Positions 2,102 to 4,615 of a stretch of 48,748 bases of DNA are shown here, piece after piece. The DNA is taken from NCBI GenBank assembly GCA_023473595.1, contig JAMCYV010000022.1, positions 1 to 48,748 on the forward strand. Reading direction: 5' to 3'. The notes beneath the pieces were generated by a model. It was not told the origin of the DNA. It made no database searches and saw only the letters and a list, made by a program, of their open reading frames with translations. Each line of letters opens with the position of its first letter. Position 1 is the first letter of the stretch. The position numbers and the translations under genes were made by a program. The stretch is from Patescibacteria group bacterium (GTDB taxonomy: Bacteria > Patescibacteriota > CPR2 > UBA1875 > JAMCYV01).

Positions 2102-2131
2102 TTGACAGTATAATTCTTTTTGATTTACTAT
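2102..2131 (+). promoter_or_regulatory. Promoter of the nucleotide/radical SAM operon
   Basis: A perfect TTGACA (2102-2107), an 18-base spacer and TACTAT (2126-2131). A GGAGG site at 2138-2142 precedes the ATG at 2155. No other promoter-like pair is evident before 4615, so it probably drives all four genes. Confidence 0.65.
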
Positions 2132-2154
2132 GTGTTTGGAGGACGCAAAGGCTT

Positions 2155-2832
2155 ATGGACATGAAGAATCCTAAATACAAAAATCAAGGAATCCATGTTG
2201 ATATGGTGGTTTTTACGGTCGATGATAAAAAGATCAAGACATTGCTTGTCCAAAGAGGCCGCAAGCCTTTTGTAGGGGAATGGATTCTGCCCGGAGGGGC
2301 CGTTTACAACGATGAATCAGTTGATTTTGCAGCCGAAAGAGAATTAGAAGAAAAAACAGGCTTAAAAGATCTCTATCTAGAGCAGCTTCATACTTTCGGG
2401 AATCCCAAAAGGGATCCTAGAAAAAGGATGGTCTCAGTTGCCTATTTAGCTTTAGTAGATAAGAAAAAGGTCTCTATTTTGCAAAAAACGTCTAAAACCT
2501 TGGATGCCAAATGGTTTGATATCAAAAAGCTTCCAGATCTTGCTTTTGACCATAAAGAAATCGTAAGGCTAGCAGTAAAAAGTCTTAGAAAAATGCTTAT
2601 TTACTCGAATATTGCCTATACATTGCTTCCCTGCCAATTTACACTTCCTGAACTTCAGGGAGTGTATGAGATTATTTTAGGAGAGAAGTTTGATCGCCGG
2701 AATTTCCGCCGAAAATTCTTGAATCTAGGCTTAATAGAAGCAACAGGTAAAAGAGAGGAAGGGATGGCTAATCGTCCAGCAAATCTCTATCGTTTTAAAG
2801 CTAAAAAATATAAGGCGGTAGACATTTTATAA
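2155..2832 (+). CDS. Nudix-domain transcriptional regulator, NrtR-like
   Basis: This is a 225-residue protein. Residues 13-140 form a Nudix domain with an intact box: G48, E54, then RELEEKTGL at 62-70. Residues about 150-225 form the winged-helix domain typical of NrtR-type regulators, with the FDRRNFRRKF element near residue 190. NrtR proteins bind ADP-ribose or related NAD-linked metabolites and repress NAD genes. Here the neighbours are a nucleotide kinase, a radical SAM enzyme and a dCTP-deaminase-like gene, so the regulon is probably this operon. Whether the Nudix site still hydrolyses substrate cannot be told, since all box residues are present. Confidence 0.8.
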   Translation: MDMKNPKYKNQGIHVDMVVFTVDDKKIKTLLVQRGRKPFVGEWILPGGAVYNDESVDFAAERELEEKTGLKDLYLEQLHTFGNPKRDPRKRMVSVAYLALVDKKKVSILQKTSKTLDAKWFDIKKLPDLAFDHKEIVRLAVKSLRKMLIYSNIAYTLLPCQFTLPELQGVYEIILGEKFDRRNFRRKFLNLGLIEATGKREEGMANRPANLYRFKAKKYKAVDIL

Positions 2833-2865
2833 TTTAACTTTTTTTTAGAAAGGGTTTGCGTCAAT

Positions 2866-3372
2866 ATGACAGCACTGGTTAATAGCAAGATCTTAAGAAT
2901 TATCGTTGAGGGTCCTGATTGCTCTGGTAAGTCCACATTGGTGGAAAGGTTAAAAAACTCTTTAAGATGGGATTCTAAATATCTAAGACACAAGGAAGGT
3001 TATCAATTTACAAGATATTTAAAGGAATACGCAAGCCAGGAACATACCGTATTTGACCGAGGACATTTTTCTGAAGAGGTTTATTCGAAAATGTGGCGAG
3101 GGGGCTCCCCCTTTCATAAAAAAGAGAAGCAAATTTTAGACAACCTAGTGAATTATAAGAGAATTGTTATCTTTTGCTGCCCTACTTTAAAAGAGATTAA
3201 AAAAAGATACCTTGCTCGAGGATTTGAACAACAAATCAGTTTGGAAGAACTCAAACGTTCAAGAGAACTTTTTATGAGATACTTTAAAAGTATTCCTCAT
3301 ATAACTTATAAATCAGAGAACTATAAGGAGCTTGAGTCTTTGATTAAAAAAATAAAAAAGGAGGTTGAATGA
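2866..3372 (+). CDS. P-loop nucleotide kinase, thymidylate/deoxynucleoside-kinase-like
   Basis: This 168-residue protein has a Walker A motif GPDCSGKST at residues 16-24 and a D64-R65 pair (DRGHFSEEVY) matching the DR(Y/F/H) motif of thymidylate and deoxynucleoside kinases. A lid-like basic region (KKRYLARGFEQQ) follows. It is shorter than a usual Tmk (about 200-210 residues), so substrate choice is open. It starts 33 bases after the Nudix regulator, with an AAAGGG site, and overlaps the radical SAM gene by ATGA. Its place between a regulator and two nucleotide-type enzymes argues for a dedicated role, not housekeeping dTMP phosphorylation. Confidence 0.75.
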   Translation: MTALVNSKILRIIVEGPDCSGKSTLVERLKNSLRWDSKYLRHKEGYQFTRYLKEYASQEHTVFDRGHFSEEVYSKMWRGGSPFHKKEKQILDNLVNYKRIVIFCCPTLKEIKKRYLARGFEQQISLEELKRSRELFMRYFKSIPHITYKSENYKELESLIKKIKKEVE

Positions 3373-4100
3373 AACTTTATGTTATCCCAGTAGGTTACCT
3401 TTGCAATGCTAGTTGCCCCTATTGTATAACAAAGGCAATAAACTCAAGGAAAAAAGAAGGCTTTTTAAAAATTAAGACTTTAAGAGGAATTTTAGACGAA
3501 AAAAAATTTGAAAAGATTGAGATAACTGGCGGAGGCGAGCCGACTTTGCATCCTAAGATCCAAGAAATTATTGATTTATGTACCGAGAATGCCCCAACGC
3601 AGATGTATACCAATGGGACCTTTAAGAAAATTAATAACCTGGGAAAGTTGTATTACCTTTGTATCTCTAGAGCTCACTATAAAGATCTAGAAAACCAAAA
3701 GATAATGGGGATTAGTTATGAGCTAGATAATATTTTAAAGATAAAAGTACCAATCAAATTTTCATTAATCTCGCATAAATCGGGTATCGGCACTTCTAAA
3801 GAAGTTCTAAATTACCTTAATTGGGCTAAAAACAAAGCAAAAAAAGTAGTGATTAGGCAACTCTTTGAAGAACCAAACGAGATTTATGGAGATTATTATG
3901 AAAAAGAATTTATTTCAACTGACGAGATCTTTAAAGAATTAGAAATAAAAGATTTTAAGTTTACTAACCAGGGAAATAGGTTGATTGATTACCATGGATT
4001 AGAAGTTGAATTTGAATGTCGAGATTGCTCTCAAAACGAAGGAGCACCGGTTCTTTATTCAGATGGAAAGTTATATGAGGGGTGGGGAGAGATAGCATGA
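3369..4100 (+). CDS. Short radical SAM enzyme in a nucleotide-metabolism operon
   Basis: This 243-residue protein has the 4Fe-4S motif C12-x3-C16-x2-C19 (CNASCPYC) close to the N-terminus and the SAM-binding GGGEP at residues 54-58. A second Cys pair, C217 and C220 (CRDC), sits near the C-terminus and could bind an auxiliary cluster or zinc. It overlaps the kinase gene upstream and the dCTP-deaminase-like gene downstream, each by ATGA, so the three are almost certainly co-translated. I cannot assign a reaction. QueE, NrdG and viperin were considered, but none of their specific signatures is apparent. Modification of a nucleotide or nucleoside is the contextual inference. Confidence 0.75.
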   Translation: MKLYVIPVGYLCNASCPYCITKAINSRKKEGFLKIKTLRGILDEKKFEKIEITGGGEPTLHPKIQEIIDLCTENAPTQMYTNGTFKKINNLGKLYYLCISRAHYKDLENQKIMGISYELDNILKIKVPIKFSLISHKSGIGTSKEVLNYLNWAKNKAKKVVIRQLFEEPNEIYGDYYEKEFISTDEIFKELEIKDFKFTNQGNRLIDYHGLEVEFECRDCSQNEGAPVLYSDGKLYEGWGEIA

Positions 4101-4615
4101 TTTTAACGGGTTCTGAGATTAAGAAGCAAGTAGAAAATCACAGAATTCATATCTATCCTTTCAACGAAGAATTTTTAAACCCAAACAGTTACAACTTTCG
4201 GCTCGGTAAAATCCTTAAGGTATATAAATACCCTATTTTAGATCCCAAAATTGAAAACGAATTTGATGAAATAATCATTCCTGAAGAAGGATATATATTA
4301 AGGCCAAACCAGCTTTATCTAGGTCATACAATTGAAGAAATGGGCTCCAACTTTTATGTACCGATTATGCAGGCCAGAAGCTCGGTTGGGAGATTAGGCC
4401 TATATATTTACCTTAATTCCGGGCTTGGTGATTTGGGATTTAAGAGACAATGGACTTTGGAACTACATGTCATTCATCCTTTAAAGGTTTATCCAGGGAT
4501 GAAAGTCGGTCAAATGCTTTTTTGGAAGACTCTTGGGAAGATTAAATTATACGAAGGGAAATATCAAAATGCAGTTGGACCGGAAACCAGTAAAATCTGG
4601 AAAGATTTCGGATAA
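4097..4615 (+). CDS. dCTP deaminase/dUTPase-family protein
   Basis: From the ATG at 4097 the protein has 172 residues. It carries RSSVGRLGL at 94-102, matching the Ser/Arg active-site loop of dCTP deaminase, and WTLEL with E122 at the position of the catalytic glutamate. NSYNFRLG near the N-terminus is also typical. The family is a trimeric beta-barrel acting on dCTP or dUTP. A GTG at 4082 would add five residues, but the ATG gives a 4-base ATGA overlap with the radical SAM stop and a GGGGAGAG site, so I prefer it. It closes the operon. It could deaminate dCTP or a modified nucleotide. Confidence 0.8.
   Translation: MILTGSEIKKQVENHRIHIYPFNEEFLNPNSYNFRLGKILKVYKYPILDPKIENEFDEIIIPEEGYILRPNQLYLGHTIEEMGSNFYVPIMQARSSVGRLGLYIYLNSGLGDLGFKRQWTLELHVIHPLKVYPGMKVGQMLFWKTLGKIKLYEGKYQNAVGPETSKIWKDFG

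Follow-up and report, generated by a model that had tools for sequence, protein, structure and literature searches.

Gene content and layout of the locus

The window, by which we mean the whole stretch of 48,748 nucleotides analysed here, is contig C7 of a draft host genome (G000) of 0.77 Mb (84.6% complete), a Patescibacteria-type genome as judged from its phylum sample, to which a WWE3 bacterium belongs. Four open reading frames lie on one strand of it, all of them present as an earlier sequence-only reading had described, and encode a regulator, a kinase, a short radical SAM protein and a dCTP deaminase (Dcd)-like protein, for which the open reading frame list also offers an alternative GTG start at 4082 (Table 1). 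The kinase and radical SAM genes overlap by a literal 4-nt ATGA (GTTGAATGAAAC at 3369), as do the radical SAM and Dcd-like genes (ATAGCATGATTT at 4097), so that the proposed joining of the last three genes was borne out. Judged by these two overlaps, the three genes are predicted to be coupled in translation. The regulator belongs to the group less securely; a gap of 33 nt, with no overlap, sets it apart from the kinase gene. A promoter shared by all four genes had been proposed as well: the TTGACA-18-TACTAT site exists and is a plausible, not a proven, operon promoter, but the region is no richer in promoter-like sites than shuffled sequence (11 versus 11.1).

Table 1. Positions of the operon features in the window and of the resident thymidylate kinase on another contig of the host genome
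Feature	Position	Strand	Details
Promoter-like site TTGACA-18-TACTAT	2102..2131	+	10/12 matches, best in region
NrtR/AraR-type regulator: Nudix-like domain and winged helix	2155..2832	+	225 aa; Pfam and PDB matches
YorR-like deoxynucleotide (dNMP/dTMP-type) kinase	2866..3372	+	168 aa; PHROG 761 and YorR matches
Short orphan radical SAM protein, CNASCPYC	3369..4100	+	243 aa; PF04055
dCTP deaminase-like protein	4097..4615	+	172 aa from ATG; PF22769
Resident thymidylate kinase, Thr for Walker A Lys	G000 C13, L024:2553-3239	minus	P-loop EGIDFCGTTTQ

Judged by Pfam or by inspection, the genes flanking the operon are ordinary ones (DUF72, a CCA-type nucleotidyltransferase, RtcB and isoprenoid genes), and no defence island was seen among these metabolic surroundings. 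Recent transfer of the operon was considered and rejected, because its GC content and codon usage match those of the neighbouring genes and the host. A literature search found no description of such an operon.

The regulator matched NrtR_WHD (PF21906, 1e-24) and NUDIX (PF00293, 7e-19), both above the Pfam cut-offs, and among solved proteins AraR (3.7e-45) and the NrtR-type protein 3gz5 (2e-37); against the NrtR equivalog NF050029 it scored 173.6 bits (cut-off 400). In its Nudix box (G-AVYND-E-SVDFAAE-RELEEKTGL) Lys replaces the last Glu, as expected from other sensors of the NrtR/AraR family, which likewise have an impaired box (PMC4666351). Domain layout, winged helix-turn-helix and impaired box are thus common to this protein and the NrtR/AraR Nudix-related regulators, but no NAD or arabinose genes are found in its operon. 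Relatives occur in four other genomes of the class, and in one from the same order (G013) the relative lies two genes from an NAD kinase gene, which argues against sensing of the operon's product. The NrtR-like assignment of the sequence-only reading stands, while control of the operon by its own product is unsupported.

The kinase, the resident thymidylate kinase and the dCTP deaminase-like protein

The kinase has an intact P-loop (GPDCSGKST from residue 16) and a DR motif at residues 64-65, both of which the sequence-only reading had picked out. Pfam gave only weak Thymidylate_kin and dNK matches, and the classical thymidylate kinase (Tmk) model TIGR00041 gave 23.4 bits against a cut-off of 83.25. 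PHROG 761 (thymidylate kinase) was matched at 9.7e-19 and YorR of phage SPbeta (2axp) at 1.9e-8 in a sequence search of the PDB, and YorR also ranked first in a fold search with the predicted structure (pLDDT 72), followed mostly by deoxynucleoside, shikimate and thymidylate kinases. Because the PHROG, PDB sequence and fold searches agree, we classify the protein as a predicted YorR-like deoxynucleotide kinase rather than a classical Tmk.

Phage relatives of the kinase have a thymidylate synthase gene as direct neighbour in four cases, namely MedDCM-S28-C10, HTVC119P, HTVC200P and L028 (two are Pelagibacter phages, one is a phage from a marine fosmid and one an IMG/VR contig), and in Gordonia phage Fribs8 the relative adjoins dUTPase, with thymidylate synthase nearby. 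A YorR/PHROG 761-type kinase beside pyrimidine deoxynucleotide genes is what our operon shares with phage dTTP-supply cassettes (kinase-ThyA-dCMP deaminase/dUTPase, as in Votkovvirus and Fribs8); unlike these, it has a radical SAM gene between kinase and Dcd, no thymidylate synthase, and a chromosomal location with host-like codon usage. Within our phylum sample of 380 genomes, a kinase relative was found in just one other genome, G220, where a cluster (L114:4438-10204) encodes MazG-like, PfkB, YorR-like kinase, HhH-GPD, Amdase-like, 501-aa radical SAM and HAD-like proteins. This cluster resembles a nucleoside modification cluster, and its radical SAM protein is unrelated to that of the operon.

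A housekeeping set for dTTP (Tmk, a ThyA-like protein, dCMP deaminase, dUTPase and a two-domain Dcd) is encoded on contig C13 of the host, so the operon's nucleotide genes are extra. The resident Tmk has lost the Walker A Lys, which is kept in 10 of the 10 class relatives compared with it. Its Thr codon (ACT, C13 3168-3170) is two bases from AAA or AAG and is thus not explained by a single miscall. This variant is the only Tmk-family match in the host genome, a draft of 84.6% completeness from which another Tmk could be missing. Across the class sample (the host and 15 other genomes), no Tmk was recognisable in 5 of the 16 genomes (4 of the 11 well-completed ones), indicating that Tmk is volatile in this class. 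For an incomplete host genome, the simplest reading is that the operon kinase, which probably supplies dTMP kinase activity, would have displaced the resident enzyme. We also considered that the radical SAM protein replaces thymidylate synthase, and rejected this as needless given the ThyA-like gene on C13, though no ThyX was found in the host genome.

The last gene, which had been called a dCTP deaminase relative, proved to be one: its product matched PF22769 (DCD) with 122 bits (cut-off 27, 3e-35) and a PDB Dcd at 1.4e-17, keeps both the catalytic Asp and the catalytic Glu in the active-site columns, and scored 89.6 bits against the TIGR02274 equivalog, just under the cut-off of 92.8. It shares the fold and these acids with dCTP deaminases, with DLGF in place of their DPGF. 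Unlike a typical dCTP deaminase, it belongs to a Patescibacteria group that occurs mostly as tandem pairs; our tree places it, unpaired, as sister to two 8-member Patescibacteria clades (group support 99/97). By Pfam, PHROG, PDB and fold searches, then, the kinase and the Dcd-like protein are both deoxynucleotide enzymes, in keeping with the nucleotide theme first proposed for the operon.

The tandem Dcd-like gene pairs, found in eight Patescibacteria genomes (L102, L103, L104, L105, L106, L109, L110 and L111), are a separate puzzle, for their catalytic acids are lost in a complementary manner. Clade A proteins retain the Asp but have M, Q or T for the Glu in 7 of 7 tabulated cases; clade B proteins have H or Q for the Asp and retain the Glu in 6 of 6, genome G271 being represented by its clade A gene only. 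Such a pattern could reflect a hetero-oligomer whose active site is divided between the two partners. Three of the pairs (L103:5525-9488, L104 and L105:5492-9075), from two related genomes and a distant one, have neighbours in common: an AlaRS-like fragment, a methyltransferase of class I and a peptidase of the S66 family, to which MccF, the immunity protein for microcin C, belongs. This neighbourhood is suggestive of an aminoacyl-nucleotide pathway.

The radical SAM protein and its relatives

The third protein belongs to the radical SAM superfamily: it scored 36 bits against PF04055 (cut-off 29.5, 1e-8), has the CxxxCxxC motif and a GGE motif (GGGEP), and is modelled as a partial barrel. It reached no NCBIfam cut-off. 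The profile search against viperin, QueE and NrdG models that the sequence-only reading had suggested was run, with MoaA added, and all scores fell far below threshold: 28.1 bits versus 180 for viperin (NF038283), 31.4 versus 260.1 for QueE (TIGR03963), 25.2 versus 131.15 for NrdG/NrdG2 (TIGR02495) and 34.5 versus 284.05 for MoaA (TIGR02666). The protein is indeed not an obvious viperin, as had been remarked. No deazaguanine genes (queC/D/F) were recognised among the operon's neighbours. Its cysteines lie at positions 12, 16, 19, 71, 98, 217 and 220. The C-terminal pair noted from the sequence is real (C217/C220) but not conserved, with a single Cys there in the relative from a WWE3 bacterium; near the C-terminus there are only these two, whereas the second cluster of MoaA requires three.

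Searched alone against solved proteins, the sequence matched GDGT synthase best (2.3e-3); a 4-row profile placed viperin first (3.6e-12), followed by MoaA (5e-11). Viperin and MoaA both act on NTPs. The AlphaFold (AF2) model (pLDDT 74, pTM 0.75), built on an alignment that included SPASM-type proteins, shows a generic radical SAM fold, and a fold search with it returned peptide-modifying SuiB/anSME first, BlsE 12th as a weak match and QueE further down. Action of this protein on a nucleotide is plausible.

Only one clear relative (34-37% identity) was found among the 380 phylum genomes, in the WWE3 bacterium, and none in 26 order-mates of that genome. Neither kinase nor Dcd is encoded near it; its partner gene is a different one. 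At this locus (L068:1911-3416) the gene about 10 nt downstream encodes a phage-type HisRS-like protein carrying a PHROG 6408 domain at its C-terminus, and nrdR lies upstream on the opposite strand. More distant cousins on an Embleya plasmid and in huge phages likewise have no kinase or Dcd nearby. On Embleya plasmids (L013:7314-8906) an unannotated radical SAM protein of 530 aa, with one additional domain at the N-terminus, adjoins a putative PLP aminotransferase. Scans of viral contigs with patterns for radical SAM, kinase and Dcd, as well as degenerate ones, turned up no relative from the clade of the operon's radical SAM protein: GGGEPTLHP hit radical SAM proteins in general, mostly SPASM-type, and the gapped pattern gave only chance matches. 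Pattern scans of genomes returned the WWE3 contig alone, with short patterns that may miss distant relatives, and two alignments proved too heterogeneous to serve in a locus search. The trio of kinase, radical SAM and Dcd was seen in one genome only, and is thus, as far as these searches tell, not a demonstrated conserved or travelling system. The sequence-only reading had expected the kinase and deaminase genes to travel with the radical SAM gene and had held that homologues found mostly without them would refute it; this is largely what we observed.

Interpretation of the operon

Tentatively, and with somewhat less than even confidence, we favour an accessory deoxypyrimidine-nucleotide operon whose kinase substitutes for the resident Tmk and whose radical SAM protein works on the same pool. 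The Dcd-like enzyme would deaminate dCTP to dUTP or dUMP, and the YorR-like kinase would phosphorylate a deoxynucleoside monophosphate, most likely dTMP, thereby standing in for the Tmk with Thr for its Walker A Lys; the radical SAM enzyme, coupled between the two, would most likely modify the same nucleotides. The ATGA overlaps, the likeness to YorR, the thymidylate synthase neighbours in phages, the intact Dcd acids and the Thr of the resident Tmk count for this reading, as do the profile matches to viperin and MoaA and the position of the WWE3 relative beside the HisRS-like gene and nrdR. Against it stand the single occurrence of the trio, the relation to viperin and MoaA, which comes from the 4-row profile only, and the resident two-domain Dcd, given which dTTP alone would not call for a second one; the displacement of Tmk is further weakened by the incomplete draft.

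A looser assembly, in which two phage-type dNTP-pool genes, for the kinase and the Dcd, lie by chance on either side of a radical SAM gene with a non-nucleotide role (peptide, tRNA or lipid modification), is a possibility we take seriously while doubting it. The absence of the trio elsewhere in our searches, the other neighbours of the WWE3, Embleya and huge-phage homologues and the lead of SuiB/anSME in the fold search all speak for chance adjacency, but the radical SAM gene overlaps both of its neighbours, which implies that translation of the three is coupled, no precursor-peptide gene was seen in the operon, and two C-terminal Cys are too few for a SPASM set. An antiphage module making a chain-terminating or pool-depleting nucleotide, in the manner of viperin with a kinase but with a dCTP deaminase added, appears improbable. 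Prokaryotic viperins are short radical SAM proteins, many though not all beside a thymidylate-kinase-like gene, and here too a nucleotide kinase overlaps the radical SAM gene, with Dcd adjoining on the other side; weak pVip profile matches (2.6e-9) and the top rank of viperin among solved relatives of the 4-row profile point the same way. However, our protein is far below the viperin cut-off and shorter (243 aa versus 293-330 aa for the viperin and viperin-like chains among the PDB matches), the operon has the extra Dcd gene, whose product matched 0 PADLOC families at E<=1, and the surroundings are metabolic.

Radical SAM enzymes of the blasticidin and oxetanocin clusters act on nucleosides or nucleotides, and a small nucleoside natural-product pathway of that kind would fit the methyltransferase, AlaRS-like and S66 peptidase genes beside sister Dcd-like genes, the MazG/PfkB/HhH-GPD/radical SAM cluster around the G220 kinase relative and the weak structural match to BlsE; yet with just three genes, and none for export, immunity or ligation in the operon, we think it very improbable. 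That the radical SAM protein founds a new family, modifying a Dcd-fed and kinase-charged deoxypyrimidine nucleotide to give a previously unknown modified deoxynucleotide, is unlikely, if less so than these last two proposals.

Returning to the deoxypyrimidine reading, if the kinase truly replaces a decayed Tmk, the operon would be a clean case in which a phage-type enzyme has displaced a non-orthologous one in a minimal genome. Should the radical SAM enzyme use a nucleotide as its substrate, a new reaction would be added to deoxynucleotide metabolism.
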